From positions 90,438,810-90,502,809 of the forward strand of contig NC_079489.1 in the NCBI RefSeq assembly GCF_020520425.1: 64,000 bases of DNA, written 5' to 3'. The stretch comes from Spinacia oleracea. Taxonomy: Eukaryota > Streptophyta > Magnoliopsida > Caryophyllales > Amaranthaceae. The stretch's first letter is position 1, and every line of letters begins with the position of its first letter. The notes beneath the pieces are model-generated. The model searched no databases, was not told where the DNA came from, and worked only from the letters and a program-made list of their open reading frames with translations. Position numbers and translations under genes: made by a program. This document shows positions 199 through 26,475 of this stretch, in pieces.

Positions 199-3100
199 TT
201 AGAAATGGTACAGTTTTAGGTGTGTCGCATTCCAACTTCTTGGGATGGGTGTGTCGTCTTTGTCAACCAACTCGTATGCGCCATGTCCTGTTCGTCTCAT
301 GATCTGGTAGGGACCTTCCCACGTCGGGCCCAACTTGCCGTGTCGAGGATCCTTTTTGTTTGGGAAGACCTTGCACAGAACCCAATCTCCCTGCCGGAAT
401 ATCCGAACCCTCACATTCTTGTTGTAGCTGTTCGCGACGGCTTGTTGGTAGGAGGCCATCCTGACCAGTGCCGCTTCCCTAAATTCGTCAACAGTATTGA
501 TGTCGTAAGCCAAGACTGAGTCGTTCATTCCTGGTGCCATGAAACTGCTTCTTGCTGTGGGGAGTTCGACTTCAGGAGGGATACTGCCTCGCAACCGAAG
601 ACTAAAGAGAAAGGAGTGTGGTTGGTCGCCGTTTTTGGCGTCGTCCTGTCGGCCCAAAGGATCATAGGTAACTCGTCTGCCCATCTTCCTTTGGCGTCAT
701 CGAGGCGCTTTTTGAGGTTGTTGATGATGATTTTGTTACTTGACTCGGCTTGGCCATTTGCTTGAGGATATCTTGGTGTTGAGGTGTGCAAGGTGATGTT
801 ATACCTACTGTAGAATTCTTTGGTTTTGTTGTTAATGAACTGAGAACCATTGTCGCAGACGATCTCGGAAGGGATACCGAACCGACTAAGGATATTTCGT
901 TTGACGAACGAAATGACTTCAGTATCTCGAACTCGCTTGAAAGCTTCTGCTTCGATCCATTTGGAGAAGTAATCGGTCATTGCCAACACGAAGACGCGTT
1001 GTCCTGACGCTTGTGGTAAGGGACCTACTATGTCCATCCCCCATTTCGTGAAGGGACAAGGGGACAAGATAGGATGGAGTACTTCACAAGGTTGATGAGA
1101 GATGGATGCAAATCGCTGGCAGGAGTCGCACTTCTTAGCAAAGGTGATTGCGTCTTTCTTCATGGCGGGCCAGAAATATCCCATGGTAAGGGTTTTGTGG
1201 GCTAAGCTTCTTCCTCCAGCGTGGTTTCCACACTCTCCATCATGTATATTGCGCAATGTCGACTCAATCTTGTCATGATCAAGGCATCTCAGGTACGGTC
1301 CTGCAACCGACTTTCTGAACAATACTCCATTGATTAGGATAAATCTGGAGGCTTTCATGCGGAAGGCTTTTTCGTGGGTGACTCCAGGTGGGGTAGTGTT
1401 GTGTTTAAGCCAGTGTATGTAGGGGTCGCGCCATGAGGGCATTTGAGTAGGTTGAGACTGTTCGGTGATGGGTAGGTTATATTTGGTGATGGCTGGATAC
1501 ATTAAGTGGACTACGGGGATGGAGGTGAGTTTAGGTTTGATGTTTGAGCCAAGATTGGCTAAGGCGTCAGCCTGGGTGTTTTGGTCTCTTGGTATTTGTT
1601 GTAAGGTGCATGAATCGAACTTGTTCACGAGCCATTTTGCTATTTCCAAGTAGGCCTGCATCTTTGAATCCTTCGCTGCATACGAACCGTTAATCTGGCT
1701 GATAATTAATAAAGAATCACAATGTACCTCAAGTCGGCGGATATTCATGTCGAGTGCTAATGACAACCCCAGGATCAAAGCTTCGTACTCTGCTTCGTTG
1801 TTGGTAGCTTTGAACTCGCAACAGACGGATTGTACTATGGTGTCCCCTTGTGGCGACTTTAGCACGATGCCGAGGCCTGTCCCCCGTATGTTGGAGTAGC
1901 CGTCAGTATGTAGGGTCCATGTTGACGAGGATCCATTGTTGGTCAGTGTGTTGACTTCGTGATCGACTTCGTGTTGGAGGCTCGGGCTGAAGTCAGCCAC
2001 AAAATCAGCCAGAGCTTGCGACTTGATGGTTGTGCGAGGTTCGTACCGGATGTCGTAACAACCTAATTGTATAGCCCATTTGGACATCCTGCCAGACAAC
2101 TCGGGTTTCCTCATGATTGACTTCATGGGATAGTTAGTTCTAACAGTGATAGGATGACATTCGAAATAAGGACGCAATTTAACATAAGCAACGACTAAAG
2201 CAAGGACAAGTTTTTCGAGATGAGAGTACCTTGTCTCGGCGCTAAGTAAACACTTACTGACGTAATAAACAGGTAGCTGCTTTCCGTCTTCTTCCCGTAC
2301 TAACACTGCACTGATGGTCGACTTTGTAACTGCGAGGTATACTTGTAGTACTTCATTATTTTTTGGTTTGGACAGTAATGGGGGGTTTGACAGGTATTGC
2401 TTGAGTTGATGCAATGGGGCTTCGTGTCGGTCAGTCCAGCTGAACCTCTCATTCTTCCTAAGGATGTCGTAGAACAATTTGCACTTGTCGGACGACCTGG
2501 AGATGAAGCGGTTGAGGGCAGCCAATCTGCCTGCTAATTTTTGTACGTCCTTCTGGTTTCGAGGTGATTGTAAGTTGATGATTGCGCGGATCTGATCAGG
2601 ACTAGCTTCGATGCCTCTTTGAGTAACCATGTAACCTAAGAATTTTCCGGAAGAGACTCCGAACGAACATTTGGTGGGGTTGAGTTTCATGATGTACTCT
2701 CGCAACACGTCGAAGGCTTGCTGAAGATGCGTGATGTGATCCGAGGCTTTCTTGGATTTCACGAGCATGTCGTCGATGTAGACTTCCATTGTGTCACCCA
2801 GCTGTTTTCTGAACATTTTGTTGACTAGGCGCTGATAGGTGGCGCCTGCGTTCCTTAATCCGAACGGCATGACCTTGTAACAATAAGTTCCCCGCTCCGT
2901 GATGAAGGCGGTTTTCTCTTGATCTTCTGGGTGCATCAAAATCTGGTTGTAGCCACTGAACGCGTCCATGAATGTGAGCATCTCGTGTCCCGCAGTAGCA
3001 TCAACCATGGCGTCGATGTGGGGCAAGGGAAAAGAATCTTTAGGGCATGCTTTGTTGATGTCGGTGAAATCTATGCACACTCGCCATTTCCCATTCTTCT

Positions 3101-3490
3101 TCCTGACTACGACGACATTGGCCAACCAGTCTGGATATTTCACCTCCCTGATCTTTCCTGTATCTAGTAGTTGCTGAACTTCATCGTTGATAATTTGGTT
3201 GCGTTCAGGAGCGAACTTCCGCCGCTTTTGTTTGACGGGCTTATGTCGGGGGTCGACACTGAGTTTGTGAGTGATGACGTCTGGGTTGATGCCTGGCATA
3301 TCTTCGTGTGACCATGCAAAGCAATCCGCGTTGGCTTTGAGAAATGTAACGAGCTCCGACCTAATGTCGTCGGGTACATCGCATCCAATAAAGACGACCT
3401 GTGCTGGTTTCGCAGGATCCAAGATGATCTCATCGAGTTGTTCAGATTTAGGCTCTTCGTAGCTTTCTGGTTTGGAATTGGACTGTAATT
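199..3490 (-). pseudogene. gypsy D pol: reverse transcriptase, RNase H, integrase (broken)
   Basis: A 965-codon open stretch (3422 to 525) holds RT, RNase H and integrase. RT has the WRVCIDFTDINKACPKD and FMDAFSGYNQI blocks and catalytic YIDD near 2770. A second, plant-type RNase H follows (TDGYSN, NNEAEYEAL). Integrase has an H-H-C-C zinc region (HDGECGNHAGG, CDSC) and a core with MDIVGPLP, CDNGSQF and QANGQAE, so the D-D-E triad is visible. A frameshift near 580-600 moves the integrase C-terminus, including its GPYQI block, into the frame 684-199. In-frame stops upstream near 3493 and 3630 separate RT from protease. RT copies element RNA and integrase inserts the cDNA. This copy cannot make a full polyprotein. 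Confidence 0.9.
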
Positions 3491-3632
3491 GCTATAATGA
3501 GGATTTATTTGTGGTCGATGGCTTAAGGGCTGCCTTGTAGCACTCTTTGGATTCTTGCTGATCTCCTTTGATTTTTTGAACCCCCCATCGAGTCGGGAAC
3601 TTGATGGTTTGGTGATATGTCGAAGGGATGGC

Positions 3633-5175: not shown

Positions 5176-5568
5176 TGTTTTGGGCAAATTCGACTTAGAG
5201 GCGAGCTTGCCTTGATGAGGGTGCTAACAATCGATCGAGCTAGATAATTGAAAATGGTGAGAGCAAGTTGTAATAGCATAAGATAATCGTAGGTTTATTG
5301 GTTGGAAATCATGAATGTAAAATAGACAAGACTAAGCCATTTTATAAGCATTTACAACAAGAATGTAACGTTTATGGAATAATTGCTCATAATTAGATAA
5401 TAAGTACGTAATGAAGGCCGGCTTCATCAAGGGTTTGTAACGTCCGTTTTGAACCCAGCAGTTGGGAATACCGTTCGAATAACGCCACCTTACGCCTTGT
5501 TGGCAGCCACGTAAGCAATGCTTGCCACGTATGCCCATGTCACCAAGAGGGTATTTTTCCCCCTAACA
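5176..5568 (-). repeat. gypsy D 5' LTR
   Basis: A 393-bp LTR read on the minus strand as TGTTAGGGGG...CAAAACA, with TG/CA ends. One edge abuts the primer-binding site and the other abuts copia A sequence at 5569. A TATAAAA box lies on the minus strand near 5338-5347, a likely promoter for element RNA. The partner LTR and second target duplication are beyond the left edge. The 5 bases beside it are GATAC (5569-5573). Confidence 0.8.
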
Positions 5569-6078
5569 GATACTTACTTGAGAAGATTAGTATCGGACAC
5601 ACCAATTAAACTTTGCTGTAAGAGATGAAAATTTGTCATAAGTAAATTTCATTACATTATTAGACATTAATCCTCAATACCTGAGTGATTTGAATTTACT
5701 TGTTTGAGAACTAGTTACTTTGACGTTGTCAAGAGTCGCACCGTAAAAGGAGACTATAACAGAAACGCTCAGGCAATCACCTATCAAACGAAGTCTAACC
5801 TAAAGATCACAAGATTGGGATTGTCCTCCCATAAATCGGGATGAGATGCTAAAAGTTGTACAAGGCCACTCGGAGAGCTAGAAACTGAAAAATGCATGGT
5901 CGTGCTCAGATGAATCATAGGCTATGATTATCTGTTTATTTGATCAGTTGAACTCTGAAACCGAGAAATACCTCTGGACATAATAAGGATAACTACTCTA
6001 ACCTTATGTTCATGAGCAGGCATCAAGCGACAAAGGAATTAGGAAATGCACACTTGTCCCTAAGGACAAGTGGGAGAC
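5569..6078 (+). mobile_element. copia A, 3' non-coding end of internal region
   Basis: About 510 bp that match, as reverse complement, the interval between pol and the 3' LTR of copia B (8854 to about 9365). It ends in a purine-rich stretch, AAGTGGGAGAC, just before the LTR at 6079, in the position of a polypurine tract. This fixes copia A as a plus-strand element whose body was cut by gypsy D. The rest of A lies beyond D, outside the window. No coding sequence here. Confidence 0.8.
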
Positions 6079-7467
6079 TGAAGGAAATAATGCCCTTGGT
6101 CCAAGTATGCATTTAATGCTAAGTCTAAAAAATGCGGTTCAGTATTAATTAACAAGTTAATAATTCAGTGAGAAAGTGAACTGGATGCCTAGCTAGAGGC
6201 CGCATCAGTTCAAGTGGAATTAATAATATTAATCCACAACTAACTATTGACTGAACCCGTAGGGTCACACAAATAGTACGTGAACGGATCAAGCATTTGA
6301 GTGAATATATTATTCATTAAGTACTCCATTTATGATCATTCGGAAACGACCGATCTCGGTTCCAGTGGGAGATGAAATCGTCAAAAGGATATAAAGAATA
6401 CTCCGGAAATGATGATATTGCCGGAAACAGAAATATGGTTCATGACGGAAATATAAATATTATCCAAGTCGTAGATGTTGCCGGAAACGGAAACATTGTT
6501 CGCATTGGAAAATATTATCGGAAATAGAAATATTGTCGGAATCGGAAATATTGCCGGTAACGGAAATATTGTAGGAAAAGGAAATTATTTCCGGAATCGG
6601 AAATATTAACGGAAACGTAAATATTTGTTCAAAACGGAAATGGATTTCGGAATCGGAAAACGAATCGGAAGCTCGACGAGCGACAAGCCGGCAAGCGAGT
6701 CGGCCCATCGCTCGATAAGAAAAGGCCGGGCGCATAGCACCGGGCACGAAGCCCAACGCCAGCGCCCAGCCAATGGGCCAGCAGCACAGTGGGCCGCGCC
6801 AAGCGAGCAAGGCCGTAGCAGCACAGTGGGTCGCGCCAAGCAAGGAAGGAAGTAGTAGCACACTAGGCCGCGCCAAGCAAGCAAGGCAGCAGCGATGCAA
6901 GCCCGCGAAGGCAAGGCTGCAGCGCGCTGGATCTCTGGCCAGCTGCGGCTGCGGTTGGGCCTAGGCAGGCACGCGCGCACTAACGTGGCCCATTGTAGCT
7001 GCGTTAGTTGCTTCGTCTTGGGCTCCAAGAAAAGTCCGATTACTTAGTTTCCAAGTAACGTTGGGATTAAGTATTCCTAGTCCTGCTAGAATTGGTTTGA
7101 TTAAGAGTTTAATTAATATTTCAATTCTAATTGAATAAGAATTTCAATCCTAGTAGGGTTGGTAATTCTTTTCCTAGTAAGATTCCAATTCCTTATTTCC
7201 TACCCTATAAATATGAGGCTAGGCCCTCATAATTATATACACATCACACATTGAAAATCATATTATTTACTTACATTGTGTTCAAGGGAGAACATAATAT
7301 AGCCTAACCCGAATACATAAAACCTTAAGTAAAACCCTAGTTGGTTGAACCTAGGCGGATCCGAACGTGCTGCGGACTTTCTACGGAGGGGCAACGTTTG
7401 GGGCTCTAAAGACTTATTCTTGTTCGGTTCGGGAGCAGCTAGGGAAGGCACGCATCACATTGTATGT
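6079..7467 (+). repeat. copia A 3' LTR, first part
   Basis: Starts TGAAGGAAATAATGCCC and runs to the insertion point of copia B. The last five bases, TATGT (7463-7467), are the left target duplication of B. It carries the family's imperfect TTTCCGGAA minisatellite (about 6400-6660), a GC-rich block (6660-6960) and a TATAAATA box near 7205. Together with 27885-27984 it makes an LTR of about 1489 bp, longer than those of B and C. The open frames in the GC-rich block on both strands are by-products of composition. Confidence 0.85.
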
Positions 7468-8853
7468 TGTTAGGTTATCATACATATAAACGAATATAAA
7501 TCATGCGGAAATAACCATAAATGCCAGGATTCCAAATTAATTGCCACATAACAATTAGCATAATTTAGATGCATACACTTTGTAGCGTGCCCTCCCTTGC
7601 TGCGCCCGAACCGAACAAGAACAAGTCTTTAGGACTCCAAGTTTCGTCCCTCCGTAGAAAGTCCACAGCACGTCCGGATCCGCCTTAAGATTGACCAACT
7701 AGAATCGCCCTTAAGGTACTAAAATATTCGGCTAATATGGGCTAGTGTTTGGCTGAATTTTTGCTCAAATTCTTAGCTTTGAATACTTGAAATCCGTTGT
7801 AAATTATGAGCCCTTAACTCATATTTATAGGCCATGGAATAAGTAATCGAATCCTACTAGGATACAAATTAATTAAATTAGAATCCTAGAAGAACTCTAA
7901 ATTAATTAATCTATCTTTTAGGATTAGGAAATTCAATCAACAAATGAATCCTATACGCTTTAGGTTTCATAAGTGAACACAAACACACACGCACGCACAG
8001 CAGCCCACGAGGGGCGCCATGCGCGCGCGCGCAGCCCACGAGCAGTCGCAGCTTACTTCCACGAAGCCCACACGCTGCCGCAGCCTTGGGCGCGCGCTGG
8101 GCCTGCCTTGCGGTGGGCTTGGCGCGGCCTTGGGCTGGTGCGTTGTGGTGCGCGTTTCTCTTGCTGGACGTGGGCCTGGCTTCGTGTTGGACCTTCTTCT
8201 AGCAAGCTCGTCCGATGCTAATTCGTACGACGCGCTTCCGATTAATTTCCCGATTCCGGAATTCATTTCCGATACGAACAATATTTAACATTTCCGATTC
8301 CGGAATTAATTTCCGTCTCGAACAAATATTTAATATTTCCGATTCCGATAATATTTCCGATTCTGACAATATTTCCGTTTCCGACAATATTTCCGATTCC
8401 GGCAATATTTCCATTTCCGATAATATTTTCCGATACGTACCATGTTTCCGTTTCCGGCAACATCTACGACTTGGATAATATTTATATTTCCGATACGATC
8501 CATATTTCCGTTTCCGGCAATATCATCGTTTCCAGAGTATTCATTTACTTGCCTTTGACGATCTCAGCTCCCACTGAAACCAATATCCGTCGATTCCGAA
8601 TATGTATTAGATAGAGTAGTCAATGCCATTAAATACTTGATCCGTTTACGTACTATTTGTGTGACCCTACGGGTTCAGTCAAGAGTAAGCTGTGGATTAA
8701 TATCATTAAATCCACTTGAACTGAAGCGGCCTCTAGCTACGCATTCAGTTCACTTGATCTCACTGAATTATTAACTTGCATAATTAATACTGAACCGCAT
8801 TTATTAGACTTATCATTAAATGCATACTTGGACCAAGGGCATTATTTCCTTCA
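7468..8853 (-). repeat. copia B 3' LTR
   Basis: Plus-strand reading TGTTAGGTTATCATAC...CATTATTTCCTTCA, 1386 bp. The same family as the LTRs of A and C. Landmarks: a GC-rich block (7980-8210), then repeats of the AATATTTCCGATTCCGGC type (8230-8530), then the conserved CTACGGGTTCAGTCAAGAG region. TSD base neighbours are TATGT. Confidence 0.9.
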
Positions 8854-9712
8854 GTCTCCCACTTGTCCTTAGGGACAAGTGTGCATTTCCTAATTCCTTT
8901 GTCACTCGATGCATGCTCTTGAACATCAGGTAAGAGTTGTCATCCTTATTATGTCCAGAGGTGTTTCTCAGTTTCAGAGTTCAACTGATCAAATAAACAG
9001 ATAATCATAGCCTATGATTCATCTGAGCACGGCCATGCATTTAACAGTTTCTAGCTCTCCGAGTGGCCTTGTACAACTTTCAGCATCTCATCCCGATTTA
9101 TGGGAGGACAATCCCAATCTTGCGATCTTGAGAATAGACTTCGTTTGATAGGTGATTACCTGAGCATTGCCTTTATAGCCTCCTTTTACGGTGCGACGGT
9201 TGACAACGTCAAAGTAAGCAGTTCTCAAACAAGTAATCTCAAATCACTCAGGTATTGAGGATTAGTGTCTAATAATTTTAATGAAATTTACTTATGATAG
9301 ATTTTAATCTCTTACAGTAAACTTTCGTAGGTCTGTCCGATACTAGTCTTCCCAAAGTAAGTATCTACGCAAATGATTGCGACATTGCCATGTCCACATT
9401 GTTCAAGAAACAGAACTACTAGTCATCTTGCATTTAGTCGTCTAACGTTTTCTATGCGTCCATTTTTATAGAAAACTCCGACCAGGGACCATTTTCAACT
9501 TTTGACATTCAAGTTCACTTGATAGACATTTCTTAGTCACAGGACTGGTCCTGACAGTCTATCTTGAATATATAGTCAAATTGAAGGGACTCATCATTTA
9601 ATAAACCACAGATTAAATGGAAAAATGAATTCTATTCATTTATGTGAATGATTAACCAATAATGTTTTACAAAGTATTAAACTCTAAAACTTTAAAACAT
9701 TAAATAAGGACA
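8854..9712 (-). other. copia B 3' non-coding region
   Basis: About 860 bp between the end of the pol relic and the 3' LTR. It begins, in minus-strand sense, after the RNase H end and finishes with the polypurine-like GACAAGTGGGAGAC at the LTR. The matching interval in copia C (16152-17015) is very similar. No coding sequence seen. Confidence 0.7.
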
Positions 9713-12617
9713 TCAAAGCCATTCTGCAACAAGCTTGATTCCCATAGCTGCAATGTGCGAGTTGTGCTTCGCCTGCGGCAGAGGATTAGTCAATGGATCT
9801 GAGATGTTGTCATCAGTTCCAATCTTGCTTATCTCGACTTCTTTTCTTTCAACGAAATCTCGTAGAAGGTGAAATCTACGAAGTACATGCTTGACTCTCT
9901 AGTGGTGTCTAGGCTCCTTTGCCTGTGCAATAGCTCCATTATTATCACAATACAGAGCTATTGGTCCTTTAATGGAGGGGACTACACCAAGTTCACCTAT
10001 GAACTTCCTTAGCCATATAGCTTCCTTTGCTGCTTCATGTGCAGCAATGTACTCCGCTTCAGTTGTAGAATCCGCAATGGTGCTTTGCTTAGCACTTTTC
10101 CAGCTTACTGCACCTCCGTTGAGGCAGAAGACAAACCCAGACGGTGATCTGAAAACATCTTTGTTGGTTTAGAAACTTACGTCCGTATAGCCTTTAACAA
10201 TTAATTCATCATCTCCACCATAGACCAGGAAATCATCTTTGTGCCTTTTCAGGTACTTCAGAATGTTCTTGGCAGCAGTCCAATGTACCTCTCTTGGGTC
10301 TGACTGGTATCTTCTCGTAGCACTGAGTGCATACGCAACATCCGTGCATGTACATATCATAGCATACATTATTGAACCAATCAATGATGCATATGGAATC
10401 CCACTCATTCGTCTACGCTCATCCAATGTTTTTGGGCACTGAGTCTTGCTTAGAGTCATTCCATGAAACATGGGTAGGTAGCCTCGCTTGGAAGCAGCCA
10501 TATTGAACCTTTCAAGCACCTTATTGATATAAGTGCTTTAACTAAATCCAATCATCCTTTTAGACCTATCTCTGTAGATCTTGATTCCTAGTATGTACTG
10601 TGCTTCTCCTAGATCCTTCATCGAAAAACATTTCCCAAGCCAAATCTTGACAGAGTTCAACATAGGAATGTCATTTCCGATAAGTAATATGTCGTCGACA
10701 TAAGATACTAGAAAAGCAATTTTGCTCCCACTAACCATCTTGTATACACAAGATTCGTCTGCGTTCTTGAAGAAACTGAAGTCACTGACTGCTTCATCAA
10801 AACGTATATTCCAGCTCCTTGATGCTTGCTTCAATCCGTAGATTGATTTCTTAAGCTTGCATACCTTTTTAGCATTCTTTGGATCCTCAAAACCCTCAGG
10901 CTGTGTCATAAACACAGTTTCAGATTGCATGGCTTCTTGCCATTGCTTGGAGCTAGGGCTCGTCATAGCTTGTTTGTAAGTCGCAGGTTCATCACTTTCA
11001 ACTAATAGAACGTCATAGCTCTCGTTCGTCAAAATACCTAAGTACCTTTCCGGTTGAGATCTATATCTCTGCGATCTACGCGGGGTTACATTTCTAGATG
11101 GTCCTTGATTCTCACCAGATACTTCTAAAGATCTCTGAGTTTCATTCTGAATGTCATCTTGAGCATTCTCTAGAGTTTGTTGTTCGACTCGAATTTCTTC
11201 GAGGTCTACTTTTCTCCCACTTGTCATTTTGGAAATGTGATCTCTTTCCAAAAAGATACCATCTCGAGCAACAAACACCTTGTTCTCAGATATATTGTAG
11301 AAGTAATACTCCTTTGTTTCCTTTGGATAGCCCACAAGGATACATTTTTCAGATTTTGGATGAAGTTTGTCTGAAATTAATCGTTTGACGTATACTTCAC
11401 ATCCCCAAATCTTAAGAAAAGACACTTTTGGAGGCTTTCCAAACCATAACTCATATGGAGTCTTTTCAACAGCTTTAGACGGAGCTCTATTTATAGTGAG
11501 TGCTGCTGTATTTAGTGCATGTCCCCAAAATTCTATTGGAAGTTCGGCCTGACCCATCATTGATCTAACCATGTCTAGAAAGGTTCTATTCCTCCGTTCC
11601 GACACACCATTCCGTTGTGGTGTTCCAGCAGGAGTCAATTCTGATAGAATTTTACATTCTTTCAGATGGTCATCAAATTCATAGCTCAGATATTCACCAC
11701 CTCTGTCAGACCGCAGTGCTTTAATCTTCTTGCCTAATTGATTCTCTACTTCACCTGAAATTCCTTGAATTTTTCAAAGGATTCAGACTTATGCTTCATT
11801 AGGTAGACATAACCATATCTACTGAAGTCATTAGTGAAAGTGATAAAGTAGATGAAACCACCTCTAACATCTGTATGGATTAAATCCAATAGTTCAGTTG
11901 CTCTTTCTCCAACTTTAGAGAAAGGTTGCTTTGTCATTTTGCCAAGTAAACATGATTCGCACTTACCATAATCCTCTAAGTCAAATGGTTCTAGAATTCC
12001 TTCCTTTTGAAGTCTTTCTATGCGTTTCAAGTTAATATGGCCTAATCGACAATGCCACAGATAGGTGAGATCTGAATCATCCTTTTTGGTATTTATGTTA
12101 TAAACTTGTTTGTCGTGATCTAATAAATAAAGTCCATTGACTAATCTAGCAGATCCATAAAACATCTCTTTAAAATAAAAAGAACAACTATTGTCTTTTA
12201 TTAAAAAGGAAAATCCCTTAGTATCTAAGCAAGAAATAGAAATGATGTTTTTAGTAAGACTTGGAACATGGAAACAGTCTTTCAGTTCCAAAACTAGCCA
12301 GAGGGCAACGACAAATAATAAGTTCCTACAGCTAATGCAGCAATCCTTGCTCCATTTCCCACTCGTAGGTCGACTTCACCCTTGCTTAACCTTCTACTTC
12401 TTCTTAGTCCCTGTGAATTGGAACATAAGTGTGAACCACAACCTGTATCTAATACCCAAGAAGTTGAATTAGCAAGTATACAGTCTATAACGAAAATACC
12501 TGAAGATGGAACGACTGTTTCGTTCTTCTGATCTTCCTTAAGCTTCAAGCAATCTCTCTTCCAATGCCCCTTCTTCTTGCAATAGAAGCATTTAGATTCA
12601 GAAGTGGGTTGGCTCAC
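9713..12617 (-). pseudogene. copia B pol relic: protease, integrase, RT, RNase H
   Basis: Nearly collinear with the intact pol of copia C. Visible pieces are the zinc knuckle CFYCKKKGHWKRDC (about 12565-12606), protease DTGCGSHLCS, pre-integrase HCRLGHINLKR, integrase HTDV and NGVSERRNRT, RT YVDDILLIGND and parts of RNase H. Two deletions against C are clear: 24 bp in integrase (C has CGPMSTNA where B runs HTDV-RGG, near 11865), and about 300 bp in RT near 10915, where EAMQSE runs straight into TVFMTQPEG. The second removes the KARLVAKG and QMDVKTAFLNG blocks. Open pieces lie in several frames, so the gene is dead. Confidence 0.9.
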
Positions 12618-12656
12618 CTTCTTCTTTTCAGATTTGGTGCCGCCTGGCTGCTTAGT

Positions 12657-13343
12657 CTAGCTGGCCTTGTTGCCACCTTTCTTAGCATTCCTCTTCTTAC
12701 CAGATTTCTTGAACTTGCCCCCACGCACCATAAGCACATCTTGCTTATCACTTTTGAGCGTCTTTTCAGCGATCTTCAGCATACCGTGAAGCTTAGTGAG
12801 CGTTTTGTCCAGACTATTCATATTGTAGTTCAGCTTGAACTGATCATACCCGCTATGAAGAGAATGGAGGATGGTGTCTACAGCCATTTTCTAAGAGAAT
12901 TGCTGATCCAGCCGACTCATATTCTCAATGAGTCTAATTATTTTGAGAACATGTGGACTTACGGGCTCGCCTTTCTTAAGCTTGGTCTCAAGAATTTGCC
13001 TATGAGTCTCGAATCTTTCGTCTCGAGCCAAATCTTGGAACATGTTCTTTAACTCACTGATGGTCATGAAAGCATCTGAGTTGAAGAACGTTTTCTGTAG
13101 ATCTGCACTCATGGTTGCAAGAATTAGACATTTCACATCCTTGTTGGCATCAATCCAACGATTGAGGGCTGCCTGAGTGACCCCGTTGCCAGCGGCTTCG
13201 GGCATCGCCTCTTCCAGGACATACTCCTTTTCTTCCTGCATAAGAACTATTTGCAAGTTCCTTTGCCAGTCAAGGAAGTTTTTCCCGTTCAACTTCTCCT
13301 TTTCGAGAATTGATCGGATGTTGAATGAATTGTTGTTTTCCAT
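12657..13343 (-). pseudogene. copia B gag relic, divergent from copia C gag
   Basis: Starts at the ATG at 13343 (MENNNSFNIRSILEKEKL) and carries the copia gag pattern NFLDWQRNLQIVL with a downstream ILHSLHSGYDQFKLNY block. A stop near 12890 splits it, and a lysine-rich stretch precedes the zinc knuckle of the pol relic. Gag forms the virus-like particle. Flanking leader and pol are close to copia C, yet this gag resembles C's only in scattered positions (MxNNN start, LxSLHSGxxxFK), which suggests a different ancestry for this segment. Confidence 0.82.
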
Positions 13344-14768
13344 AGTTAAACCTACAATTGAAAAAGAATAAACAAATAAATAATCATTCACAGTTTCTCT
13401 TAATAAATTTAAATTCTAGCAAACATGCATAATTTATCATTTATTAAGCATTTTATTCAAGTTATGTGTTCCGGCAGGTGTGAATAAAATGATTCCAAGA
13501 TCCTTAAATCATTGAAGAATTAAGCACATTATGTATTTTGACTCAATTCTAAAATATTTTAGGTAAGCAAAAGCCTTAATCTAATAGTCTATAAACTACT
13601 CTTGGTTGATAGGTACGTCTAAGAACTTATTAGGTAAACCTATCGATTTTGCCACGATATAAAAGGACTCCTTACTTATATCGTTGAGTTTCACCAAAAC
13701 TAACATGTACTCACAATTATTTGTGTACCTTACCCCTTTAGAATCAATAAGTAACACCTCGCTATGGCGAAAAACTATTATTAAGATTGATGTAAAGGTT
13801 ATCCAAGTAAGTGTTATTTTGGCATGGCACCTTTTAACTCGATTTTTAAGTTTGGAACTTAAGGCTCTTACTATGTTGGTTAGGTTTTAAGTGAACTAAA
13901 ATCCTTAATCATGCAACATAATCAAGCCATAATCTCATGCATAATTAAGACATATTTAAAGCAATAAATAACTTTAAAACATGTATAAGATATAAATGTT
14001 ATCTAGTATGGCCCGACTTCATCTTAAAGCTTCAAATTCAAAGTCCGTCTTGAAAATGGATTGAAAACTCCGTCTTGAATTTCACCATGGGAGGCGCCAT
14101 TTTCTTCAAATAGGATCAGCTATAATTAAACTAATTACAACTATTTGATGGTACGCAGACCATATTTAAAAGCAATAAAATTTGGTACTTTAGACCAATA
14201 TTACATTCAAATTAATGGTACGCAGACCATATTTTCTATCTTATTTGGGCCATACTAGTCACTTTTCAATAACCTGCAAAACAGTACATATACAATATAT
14301 ACCATTCACTCATTCATTATCATGAATGGTCCACGTAGCTGGTTAGTAGAACATGTTATGCATCACATGAATATTTGCAGCAATTAATCAAGGGCACCAA
14401 TTAATCAAGGGCACCAATAATCTACCAATTATTCAGTCCTTATTAATTCTAATCAAGTTGTTTAACCTTAAAGGAATGTAGACCTAATCAAGAGTTTATG
14501 ACTAAAATGCTCCCACTTAAACCAATACATTCACATGCTTTACTAATTTAAACATAAAAATGTATTTCCTAGTCTAACCGGAAACATACAAATTTAATTC
14601 AAATTTAAAGCTCATATAAATTTATAATTGAATCCATTTAATTTATTTTCAGTTGAATTAAAATGAATTTAAATTAATTCAAGGTTTTAATTTTAGTAAA
14701 ATAATTAGTATAAATAAAATTTATAATAATTAGATTATTCAAAATTAAATTCTGAGAAAACAATTTAA
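13344..14768 (-). other. copia B leader, proximal part
   Basis: AT-rich untranslated leader between gag and the point where copia C inserted. It matches C's own leader (21003 to about 22350) closely, including CAGGTGTGAATAAAATG near 13475. Positions 14764-14768 (TTTAA) are the left target duplication of C. A TTCTTTTTCAATTGTAG stretch on the minus strand just before the gag ATG looks like a 3' splice site, so a spliced leader is possible. Confidence 0.6.
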
Positions 14769-16151
14769 TGTTAGGTTATGATACATATGACACTACATAG
14801 ATCATGCGGAAACAACCATTAACCCAGGACAACATATTATTTACACATAATCATATAGCATAATTTAGATGCATACTCTTTGTTGCGTGCCCTCCCTAGC
14901 TGCGCCCGAACCGAACAAGAACAAGTCTTTTAGGACTCCAAGTGTCGTCCCTCCGTAGATAGTCCACAGCACGTCCGGATCCGCCTTAAGATTGACCAAC
15001 TAGAATCGCCCTTAAGGTACTAGAAAATTTCGGCACTTTTGAGCAAGATGTGTTTTAATTTTCTCTCAAAAAACTCACTTTTGAATACTTTGAAACTTGT
15101 GTATAAATTATGACCCCTAGGCCTTTATTTATAGAGTTATGGAAAAGGAATCGTAATCCTAGTAGGATACGAATTAATTGGAATTAGAATCCTACATGAA
15201 TTCTATTTAATTAATTTATCCAATTAGGAATAGAAATTTAATCATACACTGACTCTTGTAGATTCAGGAATCACGTATGAGCACAAACTCACACACACAC
15301 GGCAGCCACAAGGGCTGCCCATGCGCGTGCGAGCAGCAGCCCGCGCAGCACGGCCCACGCATCCGTGGCCCTTGGCGCGCGCTGGGCCTGCCTTGCGGTA
15401 GGCCTGGGCGCTGCCTTGGCTGGGCTTGTGGCGCGCATGCTTGCTGGGCGATGGCCCCGGCTTCGTGCTGGGCCTTCGTCCGGCAAGCCTCGTCCGATGC
15501 TAATTCGTACGATACGCTTCCGATTAAATTTCCATTTCCGGAATCTATTTCCGATACGAACAATATTTAATATTTCCGATTCCGGAATTAATTTCCGTTT
15601 CGAACAAATATTTAATATTTCCGTTTCCGGAATTATTTTCCGATTCCGGCAATATTTCCGATTCTGACAATATTTCCGTTTCCGGCAATATTTCCGATTC
15701 TGGTAATATTTCCATTTCCAATAATATTTTCCGATACGTACCATGTTTCCGTTTCCGGCAACATCTACGACTTGGATAATATTCATATTTCCGATACGAT
15801 CCATATTTCCGTTTCCGGCAATATCATCGTTTCCGGAGTATTCATTTCTTGCCTGTGACGATCTTAGCTCCCACTGAAACCAAGATCCGTCGGTTCCGAA
15901 TATTCATAGATGGAGTATTTAATGCCATTAAATACTTGATCCGTTTACGTGCTATTTGTGTGACCCTACGGGTTCAGTCAAGAGTAAGCTGTGGATTAAT
16001 ATCATTAATTCCACTTGAACTGAAGCGGCCTCTAGCTAGGCATTCAGCTCACTTGATCTCACTGAATTATTAACTTGTTAATTAATACTGAACCGCATTT
16101 ATTAGACTTAACATAGAATGCATACTTGGACCAAGGGCATTATTTCCTTCA
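14769..16151 (-). repeat. copia C 3' LTR
   Basis: Plus-strand reading TGTTAGGTTATGATACAT...CATTATTTCCTTCA. It contains a TATTTATAGAG stretch near 15125, a GC-rich block (15290-15500) and a TTTCCG-type minisatellite (15525-15840). The apparent open frames inside it come from these repeats and recur at the same offset in the other LTR. Confidence 0.95.
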
Positions 16152-17015
16152 GTCTCCCACTTGTCCTTAGGGACAAGTGTGCATTTCCTAATTCCTTTGT
16201 CGCTCGATGCTTGCTCTTGAACATAAGGTAAGAGTTGTCATCCTTATTATGTCCAGAGGTGTTCCTCGGTTTCAGAGTTCAACTGATCAAATAAACAGAT
16301 AATCATAGCCTATGATTCATCCGAGCACGGCCATGCATTTCACAGTTTCTAGCTCTCCGAGTGGCCTTGTACAACTTTTAAGCATCTCATCCCGATTTAT
16401 GGGAGGACAATCCCAATCTTGCGATCTTGAGATTAGACTTCGTTTGATAGGTGATTACCTGAGCGTTGCCTTTATAGCCTCCTTTTACGGTGCGACGGTT
16501 GGTCAACGTCAAAGCAACCAGTTCTCAAACAAGTAATCTCAAATCACTCAGGTATTGAGGATTTAGTGTCTAATAATTTAATGAAATTTACTTATGACAG
16601 ACTTTCATCTCTTACAGTAAAGTTTCATAGGTCTTGTCCGATACTAGTCTTCCCAAAGTAAGTATCTATGCAAATGATTATGACATTGCCATGTCCACAT
16701 AGTTCAAGAAACAGAACTACTAGTCATCTTGCACTCTAATCGTCTAACGTTTTCTATGCGTCCAATTTTATAGAAAACTCCAATTAGGGACCATTTTCAA
16801 CCTTTGACATTCAAGTTCACTTGATAGACATTTCTTAGTCACAGGACTGGTCCTGACAGTCTATCTTGAATATATCGTCAAATTGAAGGGACTCATCATT
16901 TAATAAACCACAAATTAAATGGAAAAATGAATTTCTTTCATTTGTTGTGAATGATTAACCAATAATGTTTTACAAAGATTTAAACTCAAAAACTTTAAAA
17001 CATTAAACAGAGACA
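16152..17015 (-). other. copia C 3' non-coding region
   Basis: 864 bp between the gag-pol stop and the 3' LTR. On the minus strand it ends in GACAAGTGGGAGAC immediately before the LTR's TGAAGG, the expected place of the polypurine tract that primes plus-strand cDNA. No open frame of interest. Confidence 0.7.
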
Positions 17016-20000
17016 TCAAAGCCATTCTCCAATATGCTTGATTCCCATAGCTGCAGTGTGCGAGTTGTGCTTCGCTTGCGGCAGAGGTTTAGTTAATGGA
17101 TCTGATATGTTGTCATCAGTTCCAATTTTGCTTATCTCGACTTCTTTTCTTTCAACGAACTCTCGTAGAAGGTGAAATCTACGAAGTACATGCTTGACTC
17201 TCTGGTGGTGTCTAGGCTCTTTTGCCTGTGCAATAGCTCCGTTATTATCACAATACAGGGCTATTGGTCCTTTAATGGAGGGGACTACACCAAGTTCTCC
17301 TATGAACTTCCTTAGCCATATAGCTTCCTTTGCTGCTTCATGTGCAGCAATGTACTCCGCTTCAGTTGTAGAATCCGCAATGGTGCTTTGCTTAGCACTT
17401 TTCCAGCTTACTGCTCCTCCGTTGAGGCAGAAGACAAACCCAGACTGTGATCTGAAATCATCTTTGTCGGTTTGGAAACTTGCGTCCGTATAGCCTTTAA
17501 CAATTAATTCATCATCTCCACCATAGACCAGGAAGTCATCTTTGTGCCTTTTCAGGTACTTCAGAATGTTCTTGGCAGCAGTCCAATGCGCCTCTCCTGG
17601 GTCTGACTGGTATCTGCTCGTAGCACTGAGTGCGTACGCAACATCCGGGCGTGTACATATCATAGCATACATTATTGAACCAATCAATGATGCATATGGA
17701 ATCCCACTCATTCGTCTACGCTCATCAAGTGTTTTTGGGCACTGAGTCTTGCTTAGAGTCATTCCATGAGACATGGGTAGGTAGCCTCGCTTGGAGTCCG
17801 CCATCTTGAACCTATCAAGCACCTTATTGATATAAGTGCTTTGACTAAGTCCAATCATCCTTTTAGATCTATCTCTGTAAATCTTGATGCCCAATATGTA
17901 CTGTGCTTCTCCTAGATCCTTCATCGAAAAACATTTCCCAAGCCAAATCTTGACAGAGTTCAACATAGGAATGTCATTTCCGATAAGCAGTATGTCGTCG
18001 ACATATAATACTAGGAAAGCAATTTTGCTCCCACTGACCTTCTTGTATACACAAGATTCGTCTGCGTTCTTGATGAAACCAAAGTCACTGACTGCTTCAT
18101 CAAAACGTATATTCCAGCTCCTGGATGCCTGCTTCAATCCGTAGATTGACTTCTTTAGCTTGCATACCTTTTTAGCATTCTTTGGATCCTCAAAACCTTC
18201 AGGCTGTGTCATAAACACAGTTTCTGTTAAAACGCCGTTTAAGAAAGCAGTTTTGACATCCATCTGCCATATTTCGTAATCGTAATATGCAGCGATTGCT
18301 AACATTATTCGAATAGACTTTAGCATTGCAACTGGTGAAAAGGTTTCATCGTAATCCACACCGTGGACTTGCCTGTAACCTTTTGCAACCAATCTAGCTT
18401 TGAAAACTTCAAGTTTCCCATCCTTGTCCTTTTTCAGTTTGAAAACCCATTTGCTTCCAATGGCTTGGTAGCCATCTGGCAAATCGACCAAATCCCATAC
18501 TTGGTTTTCAGACATGGAGTCTAATTCAGATTGCATGGCTTCTTGCCACTGCTTGGAGCTAGGGCTCGTCATAGCTTGCTTGTAAGTCGCAGGTTCATCA
18601 CTTTCAAGTAATAGAACGTCATAGCTCTCGTTCGTCAAAATACCTAAGTACCTTTCCGGTTGAGATCTATATCTTTGCGATCTACGCGGGGTAACATTTC
18701 TAGATTGACCATGATTCTCACCAGATTCTTCTAAAGATCTCTGAGTTTCATCCTGAATGTCATCTTGAGCATTCTCTAGAGTTTGTTGTTCGACTCGAAT
18801 TTCTTCGAGGTCTACTTTTCTCCCACTTGTCATTTTGGAAATGTGATCCTTCTCCAAAAAGACACCATCTCGAGCAACAAACACTTTGTTCTCAGATGTA
18901 TTGTAGAAGTAATACCCCTTTGTTTCCTTTGGATAGCCCACAAGGATACATTTGTCAGATTTTGGATGAAGTTTGTCTGAAATTAATCGTTTGACGTATA
19001 CTTCACATCCCCAAATCTTAAGAAAAGACACATTTGGAGGTTTTCCAAACCATAATTCGTATGGAGTCTTTTCGACAGCTTTAGACGGAGCTCTATTTAT
19101 AGTGAGTGCAGCTGTATTTAGTGCATGTCCCCAAAATTCTAATGGAAGTTCGGCCTGACCCATCATTGACCTGACCATGTCTAGCAAGGTTCTGTTCCTC
19201 CGTTCTGACACACCGTTCCATTGTGGTGTTCCAGGAGGAGTCAATTCTGATAGAATTCCACATTCTTTCAGATGGTCATCAAATTCATAGCTCAGATATT
19301 CACCGCCTCTATCAGACCGCAGTGCCTTAATCTTCTTGCCTAATTGATTCTCTACTTCACTCTGAAATTTCTTGAATTTGTCAAAGGATTCAGACTTATG
19401 CTTCATTAGGTAGACATAACCATACCTACTGAAGTCATCAGTGAAAGTGATAAAGTAGCTGAAACCACCTCTAGCATTTGTACTCATTGGTCCACATACA
19501 TCTGTATGGATTAAACCCAATAGTTCATTTGCTCTTTCTCCGACTTTAGAGAAAGGTTGCTTTGTCATTTTGCCAAGTAAACATGATTCGCATTTACCAT
19601 AATCCTCTAAGTCAAATGGTTCTAGAATTCCTTCCCTTTGAAGTCTTTCTAAGCGTTTCAAGTTTATATGGCCTAATCGACAATGCCACAGATAGGTGAG
19701 ATCTGAATCATCCTTTTTGGCCTTTTTGGTATTTATGTTATATACTTGTTTGTCGTGATCTAATAAATAAAGTCCATTGACTAATCTAGCAGATCCATAA
19801 AACATCTCTTTAAAATAAAACGAACAACTATTGTCTTTTATTATAAAGGAAAATCCCTTAGCATCTAAGCAAGAAACTGAAATGATGTTTTTAGTAAGAC
19901 TTGGAACATGGAAACATTCTTCCAGTTCCAAAACTAGCCCGGAGAGCAACGACAAATAGTAAGTTCCTACGGCTAATGCAGCAATCCGTGCTCCATTTCC

Positions 20001-21002
20001 CACTCGTAGGTCGACTTCTCCCTTGCTTAACTTTCTACTTCTTCTTAGTCCCTGTGGATTGGAACATAAGTGTGAGCCACAACCTGTATCTAATACCCAA
20101 GAAGTTGAATTAGCAAGTATACAGTCTATAACGAAAATACCTGAAGATGGAACGACTGTTCCGTTCTTCTGATCTTCCTTTAGCTTTGGACATTCTCTTT
20201 TGTAATGGCCTATTCCATCACAATAAAGACAGCTTGATGTGGACTTGTCCTGCTTTGATTTAGCATTGCCCTTGGACTTTCCACCTTTCTTGAATGGTCT
20301 CTTTCTAGCCTTGAGTAAATCTTTGGCTTCACAGTCCAGTACTATTTCAGCCTTTCTGACAAGGTGAATAAATTCTGCAACTGTTTCTTCTCTTGGTTCA
20401 CTTAGGTATTGTTGCTTGAAGCGACCAAACCCACTGTGTAGTGAATTGAGCAAGACAGAGACTGCCATCCTTTCGCTTATTGGTGTTCCTAGTAGACTTA
20501 GGCGATCAAAATATGAACACATAAGATCCACATGGAACCTCAGTGGGACGCCTACCCTCTGTTTAGTGCGAAGGAGCTGAACATGTGTTTCTTGGACCTC
20601 CATCCTATAACACCTGTTGGGAGAACTAACCTTTAGCCCAGACATTGATTCAATCAACTCATGGACGTTCAGGTCCCTGTCCTCCGTACTTCCACGACAG
20701 ATATCCCTCAGATTCTTGATGAGCGTAAAAGGTTCATAAGCTACAAACCTTCTAGCCCAATCATCAGGGATATTGTTCAGCATGAGACTCATAACCTTTT
20801 TGAGATCCGCATCCCAGGCGTAAAATCTCTCAGGGGTCATGTCTCTGGCATAGTAGCTTGGCATGGGATGTGATAGTACATACTCAAGTCCATTGAGTTT
20901 GACTATTTCAACTAGCTTAGCTTCCCATTCAAGAAAATTTGTCAGGTTCAGCTTGACCATAAGCTCAGAACCCATGATGATGTTTTGATTGTTGTTTGCC
21001 AT
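17016..21002 (-). CDS. copia C gag-pol polyprotein (intact)
   Basis: One open frame of 1328 codons from the ATG at 21002 (MANNNQN). An in-frame ATG at 21044 exists, but the later one follows a splice-acceptor-like TTGTAG and matches copia B's start. Order of domains, approximate residues: gag 1-250; zinc knuckle CLYCDGIGHYKREC near 256; protease DTGCGSHLC near 300; pre-integrase HCRLGHINLKR near 430; integrase triad in HTDVCGP, RSDRGGEY and NGVSERRNRT (about 500, 565, 598); RT with KARLVAKGYRQ, QMDVKTAFLNG and YVDDILLIGND (about 1000); RNase H with [16 protein letters not shown] and YCDNNGAI (1170-1255). All catalytic acids I looked for are present. The polyprotein would form the particle, copy the RNA and integrate the cDNA. 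Confidence 0.96.
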   Translation of the reverse strand: MANNNQNIIMGSELMVKLNLTNFLEWEAKLVEIVKLNGLEYVLSHPMPSYYARDMTPERFYAWDADLKKVMSLMLNNIPDDWARRFVAYEPFTLIKNLRDICRGSTEDRDLNVHELIESMSGLKVSSPNRCYRMEVQETHVQLLRTKQRVGVPLRFHVDLMCSYFDRLSLLGTPISERMAVSVLLNSLHSGFGRFKQQYLSEPREETVAEFIHLVRKAEIVLDCEAKDLLKARKRPFKKGGKSKGNAKSKQDKSTSSCLYCDGIGHYKRECPKLKEDQKNGTVVPSSGIFVIDCILANSTSWVLDTGCGSHLCSNPQGLRRSRKLSKGEVDLRVGNGARIAALAVGTYYLSLLSGLVLELEECFHVPSLTKNIISVSCLDAKGFSFIIKDNSCSFYFKEMFYGSARLVNGLYLLDHDKQVYNINTKKAKKDDSDLTYLWHCRLGHINLKRLERLQREGILEPFDLEDYGKCESCLLGKMTKQPFSKVGERANELLGLIHTDVCGPMSTNARGGFSYFITFTDDFSRYGYVYLMKHKSESFDKFKKFQSEVENQLGKKIKALRSDRGGEYLSYEFDDHLKECGILSELTPPGTPQWNGVSERRNRTLLDMVRSMMGQAELPLEFWGHALNTAALTINRAPSKAVEKTPYELWFGKPPNVSFLKIWGCEVYVKRLISDKLHPKSDKCILVGYPKETKGYYFYNTSENKVFVARDGVFLEKDHISKMTSGRKVDLEEIRVEQQTLENAQDDIQDETQRSLEESGENHGQSRNVTPRRSQRYRSQPERYLGILTNESYDVLLLESDEPATYKQAMTSPSSKQWQEAMQSELDSMSENQVWDLVDLPDGYQAIGSKWVFKLKKDKDGKLEVFKARLVAKGYRQVHGVDYDETFSPVAMLKSIRIMLAIAAYYDYEIWQMDVKTAFLNGVLTETVFMTQPEGFEDPKNAKKVCKLKKSIYGLKQASRSWNIRFDEAVSDFGFIKNADESCVYKKVSGSKIAFLVLYVDDILLIGNDIPMLNSVKIWLGKCFSMKDLGEAQYILGIKIYRDRSKRMIGLSQSTYINKVLDRFKMADSKRGYLPMSHGMTLSKTQCPKTLDERRRMSGIPYASLIGSIMYAMICTRPDVAYALSATSRYQSDPGEAHWTAAKNILKYLKRHKDDFLVYGGDDELIVKGYTDASFQTDKDDFRSQSGFVFCLNGGAVSWKSAKQSTIADSTTEAEYIAAHEAAKEAIWLRKFIGELGVVPSIKGPIALYCDNNGAIAQAKEPRHHQRVKHVLRRFHLLREFVERKEVEISKIGTDDNISDPLTKPLPQAKHNSHTAAMGIKHIGEWL

Positions 21003-23813
21003 ATTAAAACTACAATTGAAAAGAATAAACAAATAAATAACCATTCACAGTTTCTCTTAATAAACTTAAATTCTAGCATACATGCATAATTCAATGTTTA
21101 TTAAGCATTTTATTCAAGTTATGTGTTCCGGCAGGTGTGAATAAAATGATTCCAAGATCCTAAAATCATTGAAGAACTAAGCACAGTTTGTCGACTTAAT
21201 CCTAGAACATTTTAGGTAAGCAAAAGCCTTTTGCTAATAGTCTAGAAACTATTCTTGGTTGATAGGTACGTCTAAGAACTTATTAGGTAAACCTATCGAA
21301 TTTGCCACGACATAAAAGGACTCCTTACTTATATCGTTGAGTTTCACCAAAACTAACATGTACTCACAATTATTTGTGTACCTTGCCCCTTTAGGACCAA
21401 TAAGTAACACCTCGCTGAGCGAAAACTATTACTAGATTGATGTAAAGGATATCCAAGCAAGTGTATATTTTGGCATGGCACCTTTTAACTCAATTTTTAA
21501 GTTTGGAACTTAAGGCTCTTACTATGTTGGTTAGATTTTAAGTGAACTAAAATCCTTAATCATGCAACATAATCAAGCTTATGATCTCATGCATTTTAAG
21601 ACATATTTAAAACAATAAATAACTTAAAACATGCATAAGATATTTGTGATCTAGTATGGCCCGACTTCATCTTGAAGCTTTGACTTCAAAGTCCGTCTTG
21701 AAAATCTCCGTGGGAGCCACCATTTTCTTCAAATAGGATAAGCTATAACTAATTACAACTATTTGATGGTTCGCAGACCATATTTGAATTGAAAAATAAC
21801 TTTGGTACTTTAGACCAATTACATTCAAATTAATGGTACGCAGACCATATTTTCTATCCTATTTGGGCCATACTAGTCACTTCATAACCTGCAAAACAGT
21901 ACATATACAATATATACCATTCACCCATTCATTATCATGAATGGCCCACATAGCTGGTTAGTAAAACACATTATGCATCACGTAAACATTTGCAGCAATT
22001 AATCAAGGGCACCAATAATCTACCAATTATTCAGTCCTTATTAATTCTAATCGAGTTGTTTTAACCTTAAGGATTTGTAGACCTAATCAAGAGTTTATGA
22101 CTAAAAAGCGCTCCCACTCAAACCAATAAATTCATATGCTTTACTAATTTTAAACATAAAATTGTATTTCTAGTCTAACCGGAAACATACAAATTTAATT
22201 AAAATTCAAAGCTCATATAAATTTATAATTGAATCCAAAAAGTTTAATTTAATTTCAGTCGCATTTAAATTAATTCATGATTTTAATTTTAGTAAAATAA
22301 TTAGAATAAATAACATTTATTATAATTATAATATTCAAAATTAAAATCCAAGAAATTAATTCAAATTATTAATTTTAAAATTAATTAAAATTACGTGAAC
22401 TGAAATTTTCAATTTAAACATTCAAAACGATCTAATCGTAACGCAAACACCCTATGCGTTGCACGCCCATGGGCCGCACGCACACAGCCATTGCTGGCCA
22501 TGTGCGCGCAGCTCATGCGCTCGTCGCATAGCTGCTGCTGTCCTATCGCAAGCCTCCGCACAGCGCCCCATCGCACGCGAGCTATCGCTCGCAGTGCGCG
22601 CGCGCGAGATCGCTCGCTGGGCGCGCTGGCTCGCTCGCTGTGCGCGCGAGCCATCGCTCGCTGGGGCGCGACATCGCTCGCTGGGCGAGCGACATCGCGC
22701 GCTGCGCGCGCGAGCCATCGCTCGCTGGGGCGCGACATCGCTCGCTGGGCGAGCGACATCGCGCGCTGCGCGCGCGAGCAGTGCTGGGCGCAGCGCTCGT
22801 GGCACGCGAGCTTGCGCTCGCTGCGCGCGAGGCAGCGCGCGTTGTGGCGCAGCTCGCTTGCTGCCCACACGCGACTGCCTTGGCTCGCCCTTCGCCCATG
22901 CCCATTCGTTCATTGCTCGTGGCACACGACACAAGGCAGGGCTGCTGCCTTGTGCTCGTGCACTACGCCCTTGCTCATTGCATTCGTGCCGCACGGGCGA
23001 CGAGCTCCCTTGCTCGTCGTCGCATGCCCGCATTATACAACACCCCTTAAGGGTAACACGAAGCGTCCATTGCTTCGTGCGTGCAAGTTATTTGAACGAA
23101 TCGCATAAAAATTTAAAATTTATATTTAAAATTAATGACAAATTAATAAATATTATTAATTTCACAATTTTAGGGCGAAAAAATCGAAAATTTATTATCC
23201 AATTGATTTCCGATTGATATGGATTCAAGTCTAGGTCATAAAAATTTAAAATTTATCGTAAATTTACAATTTTTATGGTGGTTTTTAATCATAGGTTTCT
23301 AATTAAATTACAATTAATTATGAAAATCAAATTAATTCTAAATTATTCTAATTTTCAACAAATTAATCATAATTACAAATTAGATTGCATAATTAACAAG
23401 ACTAGGCATTCAAACTTGTTAAACATATGCAGTAGGTCAATCAAAAATTCAAGATTTATCAACAGGAATCGCAAATATTTAATTTAACATCTTAAATTTA
23501 CTAAATTTTGCATTCGAAAAACTAAAACCTTCGAAAAGTCATAGTTAGGCTTCGAATTTGAGAATTCTGGGTTCGGCAGAAAAATACTATTTTTGTCAAA
23601 ATTTTAGAATGCCTTTTACATGCGGAATTGACACAAAAATCACTCAATTCGGATGAGTAATGAAGAAACTGCCGAAAAAACTGCGTACATATAATTAAAT
23701 AAACGCAATTTGCAATTAATTAACAATTACGAAAATTAATCACCCCTTTTAATTCTTGCAAATTTGTAATATTTAACCATGTTCATGCAATTTAGATTAT
23801 GAAAATAATAAGG
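21003..23813 (-). other. copia C 5' leader
   Basis: About 2.8 kb between primer-binding site and gag, unusually long for a copia element. Mostly AT-rich, with a sharply bounded GC-rich tract (22440-23040) in its middle. Its two ends resemble the leader of copia B. Several overlapping open frames in the GC-rich tract (22409-23217, both strands) are Arg/Ala/Ser-rich and look like composition artefacts, so I do not call a gene. Confidence 0.65.
22580..22860. repeat. GC-rich tandem repeat in copia C leader
   Basis: A block built from CATCGCTCGCTGGG and GCGAGCGACATCGCGCGCTG variants. A 64-bp unit is repeated almost perfectly (CGAGCCATCG at 22647 and 22711). The motif GCTCGCTGGGCGAGC is itself palindromic, so the RNA would fold strongly. 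The corresponding tract in copia B (about 25300-25650) is GC-rich but lacks this tandem array. Confidence 0.85.
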
Positions 23814-23827
23814 GGCTCGTGATACCA
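23814..23827 (-). other. copia C primer-binding site
   Basis: The minus strand reads TGGTATCACGAGCC one base after the 5' LTR. The first eight bases match the initiator-methionine tRNA 3' end used by most plant copia elements (TGGTATCAGAGC), but a C is inserted after TGGTATCA. Copia B has the same form. Confidence 0.75.
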
Positions 23828-23828
23828 C

Positions 23829-25211: not shown

Positions 25212-25216
25212 TTTAA

Positions 25217-26460: not shown

Positions 26461-26474
26461 GGCTCGTGATACCA
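26461..26474 (-). other. copia B primer-binding site
   Basis: Minus-strand TGGTATCACGAGCC, one base from the 5' LTR start at 26476. Identical to the site in copia C, including the extra C relative to the usual initiator-tRNA complement. Confidence 0.75.
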
Positions 26475-26475
26475 C

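Follow-up and report, generated by a model that had tools for sequence, protein, structure and literature searches.

Divergent gag cassettes on a common Ty1/copia backbone in the spinach genome, with gag exchange probably by template switching

Two nested Ty1/copia elements of spinach (Spinacia oleracea), termed B and C, raise the question of how close relatives came to share leader and pol and to differ in gag. The original prediction, made from the letters alone, had proposed that the gag module was replaced between the two sisters by recombination, for instance by switching between co-packaged RNAs. The window, i.e., the whole analysed stretch of 64,000 nucleotides, derives from an 894-Mb assembly with six large contigs, and copies of both elements from the same genome were compared.

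B and C are both located on the minus strand, as are all their features given below, with C inserted inside the leader of B. The LTRs of B (3′ LTR, 7468–8853; 5′ LTR, 26476–27879) are 95.2 % identical with 47 mismatches, and the target-site duplication TATGT lies beyond both of them. Those of C (3′ LTR, 14769–16151; 5′ LTR, 23829–25211) are 100 % identical across 1383 nt, and its strandless target-site duplication TTTAA (14764–14768 and 25212–25216) is situated within the B leader. The primer-binding site of C, TGGTATCACGAGCC (23814–23827, taken from the sequence), is presumably of the initiator-tRNA-Met type. The gag-adjacent part of the B leader (13344–14768) has its counterpart at 21003–22364 of C (87 % identity over 1453 columns) and the remainder (25217–26475) follows past the nested element, while the C leader spans 21003–23828. 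Gag, protease region, integrase and reverse transcriptase of C form a single open frame (17016–21002), the pol part of which (17016–20186) is in frame with gag and harbours the Pfam domains Pol_BBD, gag_pre-integrs, rve, SH3 and RVT_2. B is older and damaged, with two stop codons in gag and a disrupted pol frame (8854–12545; 91–93 % identical to C by blastn). The Pfam order in C is Retrotran_gag_2, zf-CCHC (both below the cut-off), Pol_BBD, gag_pre-integrs, rve and RVT_2, and the gag pieces of B yielded zf-CCHC and a sub-threshold Retrotran_gag_2. LTR pairs, target-site duplications and the order gag-protease-integrase-reverse transcriptase (domains read in C) are those of Ty1/copia elements. 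Angela is reported to represent most Copia in Spinacia (PMC7840529); assignment of B and C to this REXdb lineage is only a lead.

Immediately before the gag ATG, B (13352–13370) and C (21010–21028) contain a pyrimidine-rich stretch that ends in CAATTGTAG; this stretch resembles a 3′ splice site, and splicing of the long leader is therefore conceivable. The C leader also holds a GC-rich tandem array (22572–22838; units of 21 and 64 nt) with several open frames on both strands, one of which (22399–23217, plus strand, 272 aa) had no Pfam match. The B–C leader alignment is interrupted across this array (22364–22818).

Further mobile elements were detected in the window. An inverted fragment of a third copy (5568–6659), 88 % identical to B 8291–9366 and C 15573–16667, spans the end of the internal part and the start of the LTR. 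A Ty3/gypsy-like pol ORF of 988 aa (RVT_1, RNase H, integrase) is located at 525–3491 on the minus strand, and an ORF with Pfam Retrotrans_gag (PF03732; 28876–29742, minus strand) represents a retrotransposon fragment just outside B. LINE-like ORFs (47960–51002; RVT_1, zf-RVT, RNase-H-like) are followed by an 81-nt tandem array (51159–51406), the unit of which is 64 % identical to 47885–47970, and Helitron-like ORFs with Helitron_like_N and a PIF1-type helicase extend across several frames at 53239–57901.

The 60-nt sliding identity between B and C was mostly 0.81–1.00 in leader and pol and dropped to about 0.4–0.6 between B 13342/C 21001 and B ~12570/C ~20210. Likewise, blastn aligned B 13329–14768 (87 %) and 10919–12569 (93 %) to C, with no alignment between them. 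Leader and pol thus share 85–93 % identity as against 34 % protein identity for the part of gag that starts at codon 6 and stops where the zinc knuckle ends. Smoothly graded identity across the gags of B and C was looked for by sliding window and was not seen, the steep drop being confined to gag. Aligned to young copies with a B-type gag, C displays a block exact to the base: codons 1–5 (B 13329–13343, C 20988–21002), directly upstream of the exchanged cassette, are common, C 20987–20187 (B 13328–12546) differs, and the sequences are common again from AAGCT. The type B cassette therefore occupies 12546–13328 and the type C cassette, delimited by sliding identity and copy alignments, 20187–20987, both running from codon 6 through the zinc knuckle.

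Hence, the predicted sharing of leader and pol but not gag, and the abrupt change of similarity at both gag ends, are borne out by the sliding-identity and breakpoint analyses. The range proposed for the replacement (12294–13343) contains the exchanged block, but also about 250 nt (12294–12545) of conserved protease region, and the block starts at codon 6 instead of the ATG. The two gags, described as matching at scattered residues only, are indeed strongly diverged; they are nevertheless homologues with 34 % identity and not unrelated. An open B-type gag (copy L034) matched Retrotran_gag_2 at 2.5e-11 together with a zinc knuckle in Pfam, and the C gag matched the same family at only 0.00099, i.e., under the Pfam cut-off. 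A single-sequence AlphaFold model of the C gag (mean pLDDT 38) was not used. The sharp edges had been taken as a sign of recombination; since DNA homology is absent within the cassette, they would be sharp whatever the original exchange and represent the end of homology, not necessarily the original crossover points.

Both gag types are multicopy. The C gag protein retrieved at least 145 matches from its own genome, all 100 % identical and distributed over contigs C1 to C4. The first 150 residues of the B gag retrieved at least 150 (93–95 % identical apart from B itself), and those listed were found on all six large contigs (C1 to C6) and three small ones. With a 286-residue protease/integrase query from C, 136 of the matches listed were at 99 % or more, the commonest full frames having 1342/1360 aa and 1353/1335/1347 aa. 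Forty copies, drawn via the C gag (10), the B gag (10) and the protease/integrase query (20), were typed as 14 with C-type and 26 with B-type gag. These copies are a non-random sample, having been picked from the best matches to the gag of either element or to the pol of C, in part according to ORF length; the young ones were selected for likeness to the pol of C or the gag of B, irrespective of leader. Young-copy comparisons were performed without B, L027, L028, L019, L020, L021, L023 and L024. L011 (leader broken off) was excluded from the leader alignment, and both L011 and L018 (without leader anchor) from the leader tree, the ATG-proximal sites, the leader linkage decay and the flanking-SNP test.

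Among 20 typed copies, the gag-proximal 1.36 kb of leader was 98.3–99.5 % identical to that of C in the 16 with B-type gag and 98.8–99.1 % in the four with C-type gag. Two copies with B-type gag were 99.5–99.6 % identical to C in a reverse transcriptase piece and 98.9–99.1 % in LTR pieces, the best aligned piece per pair being used (734 columns for L034). Comparison of 15 C-gag with 19 young B-gag copies placed all near-fixed differences between codon 6 and the zinc knuckle end; no near-fixed site (opposite states in at least 80 %) was found outside gag, neither in the leader (14 C-gag rows) nor in ~950 pol columns. Near-identical LTR and pol are accordingly combined with a divergent gag bounded at the gag ORF, as is characteristic of a gag mosaic.

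The flanks are nearly in linkage equilibrium with gag type. The flanks of 32 copies (13 with C-type and 19 with B-type gag) offered 33 gap-free SNPs, and at 27 of these both alleles were seen with both gag types; at 18 of the 27, each of the four pairings of allele and gag type was represented by two copies or more. For the 21 copies that were sampled through pol, or are C itself, all four pairings were found at 18 of the 33. Mean r2 between gag type and flanking SNPs was 0.049 as compared to 0.032 ± 0.015 for random labels, which reached the observed value in 65 of 500 trials. Sites with all four pairings are found as far as 81 nt upstream of the ATG (no pairing in fewer than two copies) and 102 nt into pol (a single copy representing one of the pairings), and both states of a slippage-prone T-run 8 nt before the ATG were seen with both gags. 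Within the leader, mean r2 of SNP pairs was 0.378, 0.155, 0.241, 0.144 and 0.105 in five distance classes from <50 nt to >800 nt, a weak and uneven decay matched in strength by 44 of 1000 position permutations. Gag type had to switch 9 times on the leader tree (shuffled mean 11.3; as low in 34–38 of 500) and 5 times on the pol tree (shuffled mean 12.5–12.6; as low in 0 of 500). The 3′ side thus retains more association with gag in the tree test, as the label is clustered on the pol tree.

Own-genome gag searches returned near-identical copies among the matches listed, and distant homologues of the C gag were therefore obtained via a protease-motif pattern that excluded the common codon. This pattern occurred at 18 places, 13 belonging to the family of B and C (family 1) and five to a second family. 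The older family-1 copies comprise six with C-type gag (L049, L057, L060, L061, L062, L063; L061 retaining only the final 114 nt of gag) and seven with B-type gag (L052, L053, L054, L056, L058, L064, L065). The C-type gags of L049, L060, L062 and L063 showed 82–95 % nucleotide identity, and the leaders of L049, L062 and L063 are closer to that of B (93.0, 90.0 and 95.3 %) than to that of C (88.0, 87.8 and 92.0 %). Leader and pol have aged in parallel, whichever gag is present. For gag, dN/dS was 0.14–0.27 in eight older B-type pairs and 0.23–0.27 in three of five older C-type pairs (L049, L057, L062), the damaged C-type copies L063 and L060 giving 0.43 and 0.50; on account of the low values, both gag types appear to be selectively maintained. 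Gag dS in the older copies exceeds pol dS 1.1–2.1 times in B type and 1.1–5.2 times in C type (e.g., 0.17 vs 0.08 in L064, 0.32 vs 0.14 in L049). This excess is only partly explained and fits, without proving it, a pol homogenised by exchange. In comparisons of L064, L027, L058, L065 and the window's B with L034, silent divergence of gag was 1.5–2.1 times that of the adjacent pol.

The same pattern, one pol with many gags, recurs in the second family, where B-like, D and E gags are found on near-identical pol. In four of its five hits, pol is 76–79 % identical to C at the nucleotide level and 90–92 % among themselves; in the damaged fifth, L050, identity to C is 68 %. A protease query from L051 gave at least 150 matches, eight of which were fetched and comprised five with gag D and three with gag E. 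The D and E gags are 44–46 % identical (intact rows), whereas the protease windows are 96–100 % identical between types; protease identity among these eight is partly selected, since they were chosen by protease match, but gag is not. Similarity between D and E climbs from ~55 % via 77–84 % to 96 % close to where the zinc knuckle begins; the knuckle is common to both in this pair and travels with gag in family 1. L066 carries a B-like gag (B2) 70–72 % identical to B-type gags; a B2 search listed 142 matches, and all six that were checked had a family-2 protease, 90–97 % identical to L067 and L068. The leaders of L059 (gag E) and L066 are 96.4 % identical over 500 nt, stopping ~70 nt before the L066 ATG, and those of L055 (gag D) and L066 83 % up to the gag start. 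As the divergence between B and B2 parallels that of pol (dS 1.12 for gag, 1.00 for pol), a B-type gag was probably present in the common ancestor of the two families. In the gag tree, built without the frame-shifted L074 and without the first 30 residues of L051, the C, D/F and E gags lie across a 100/100 branch from the B types; they are 35–46 % identical mutually, except for D/F with 53–54 %. Constraining the family-1 gags to one clade was rejected (AU p 5.6e-6), and on the weakly resolved protease tree the six gag types need 8 changes as compared to a minimum of 5. Sliding identity, separate trees and breakpoints thus support the predicted recombinational exchange of the gag module. What had been pictured as one replacement between two sisters is instead a recurrent reassortment of old gag lineages, given that older copies also bear both gag types.

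B and C are accordingly regarded with considerable confidence as members of one Ty1/copia family that has LTR, leader and pol in common and receives two old gag alleles as whole cassettes by recombination, probably through template switching. Two genomic RNAs with different gags would be co-packaged, the packaging signal probably residing in the leader common to both. Reverse transcriptase would then switch template in the homologous leader and again in the homologous start of the protease, reassorting gag as an intact cassette. As DNA homology is absent inside gag, crossovers there are unlikely and gag would move whole, while repeated exchange would erode linkage close to its edges. We infer template switching as the likeliest route of exchange from established retroelement biology and the work on ONSEN (PMC5668417); it would imply that RNAs with either gag are packaged together.

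The alternative with most standing, albeit an unlikely one, is that ectopic gene conversion or crossing-over between integrated copies carries the cassette, independently of reverse transcription. Many copies with homologous flanks are available for it and the same mosaics would be expected, but the mosaics appear to be fresh insertions: the LTRs of C are identical and flanked by a target-site duplication, LTR differences in the pieces compared amount to only 2/1344 (L034) and 1/1008 (L048), and conversion would need to strike copies that later spread. Far less probable is a single recent replacement, in which one B-type element took up a foreign gag and then spread. The protein identity of all 145 C-type gags among the matches listed does indicate a recent burst; a single capture, however, implies one founder haplotype for all C-gag copies, contrary to the flanking SNP combinations, 27 of 33 of which would then require repeated mutation. 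The older C-type copies L049, L060, L062 and L063, three of them (all but L060) with leaders nearer to B's, speak against it as well, and it was rejected. One scan of viral_contigs for a donor of the C gag outside the family produced 25 pattern matches with no relative among them. That no exchange occurred and gag merely evolves far faster than pol by positive selection is next to negligible in probability and was likewise rejected. Gag is less conserved in general, and its dS is higher in older copies; yet between C and L034 the silent sites of gag are saturated at a pol dS of 0.010 (299 codons), the change is abrupt to the base, and the B gag is closer to a family-2 gag (70 %) than to the C gag (34 %). 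An assembly or alignment artefact, conceivable for repeats prone to misassembly, is equally implausible and was discarded, because each gag type is present at no fewer than 145 places across several contigs, many with open frames of 1342–1360 aa.

Template switching between elements of one family, the reading preferred here, has relatives in known systems, and gag-precise mosaics as such are already known from yeast Ty1 (PMC7055915). The Ty1/Ty1′ mosaics (Czaja et al. 2020, PMC7055915) are likewise Ty1/copia elements with gag replaced and LTR and pol near-identical, with disagreeing gag and pol trees and with breakpoints coinciding with gag. Their gags, however, differ by 93 residues (dS 0.252), and the canonical gag is reported to stem from horizontal transfer (PMC7055915); in spinach, the gags on one backbone share 30–46 % identity, their types number at least five across two families of a single plant genome, and they are near linkage equilibrium with the flanks. 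Arabidopsis ONSEN, also from a plant, undergoes retrovirus-like pairwise recombination in transposition bursts, but among members of one family, and the abstract is silent on divergent capsid genes (PMC5668417). Distantly related Athila elements of Arabidopsis swap segments of gag, pol and env and give rise to lineages; they are Ty3/gypsy elements with few events, some breakpoints inside gag and no free reassortment in the portion of the report consulted (PMC2410132). Recombinant centromeric retrotransposons of grasses formed prolific subfamilies, with template switching proposed, but represent another element type with exchanged segments not centred on gag, as far as the accessible text goes (PMC4079200). 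Discrepancies between domain trees of plant Ty1/copia elements suggest ancient recombination between copia lineages (PMC6317226), at a deep lineage level as opposed to alleles within a family. Among the PMC articles listed, no plant element was found that combines one pol with several gags in free exchange; most subscription journals lie outside this body of work, and Athila (PMC2410132) comes nearest. As far as could be seen, what is new is that the mosaics occur in a plant, diverge so deeply, comprise so many gag types, recur in two families and lie near linkage equilibrium.

In Arabidopsis, the gag-only mRNA of EVD is reported to be the source of its siRNAs (PMC8892269). Yeast has a gag-derived factor that restricts canonical Ty1, a restriction reportedly not exerted by strains with only the Ty1′ gag (PMC7055915). 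By analogy, gag-directed siRNA or gag-derived restriction could, either kind, favour a rare capsid. It is tentatively suggested, as a minority possibility, that the capsid is a multi-allelic serotype locus, at which negative frequency-dependent selection would keep ancient gag alleles in a freely recombining population, a rare capsid escaping the gag-directed siRNA or Gag-based interference built up against the common one. The comparisons themselves depict a retrotransposon family as a recombining population whose capsid gene is the sole part to retain deep alleles. They also caution that naming plant copia families after pol or LTR can conceal several capsid types. Whether control through gag, by the host or by the element itself, favours capsid replacement, as gag-based copy-number control of Ty1 in yeast may, thereby becomes a question testable in genome data.
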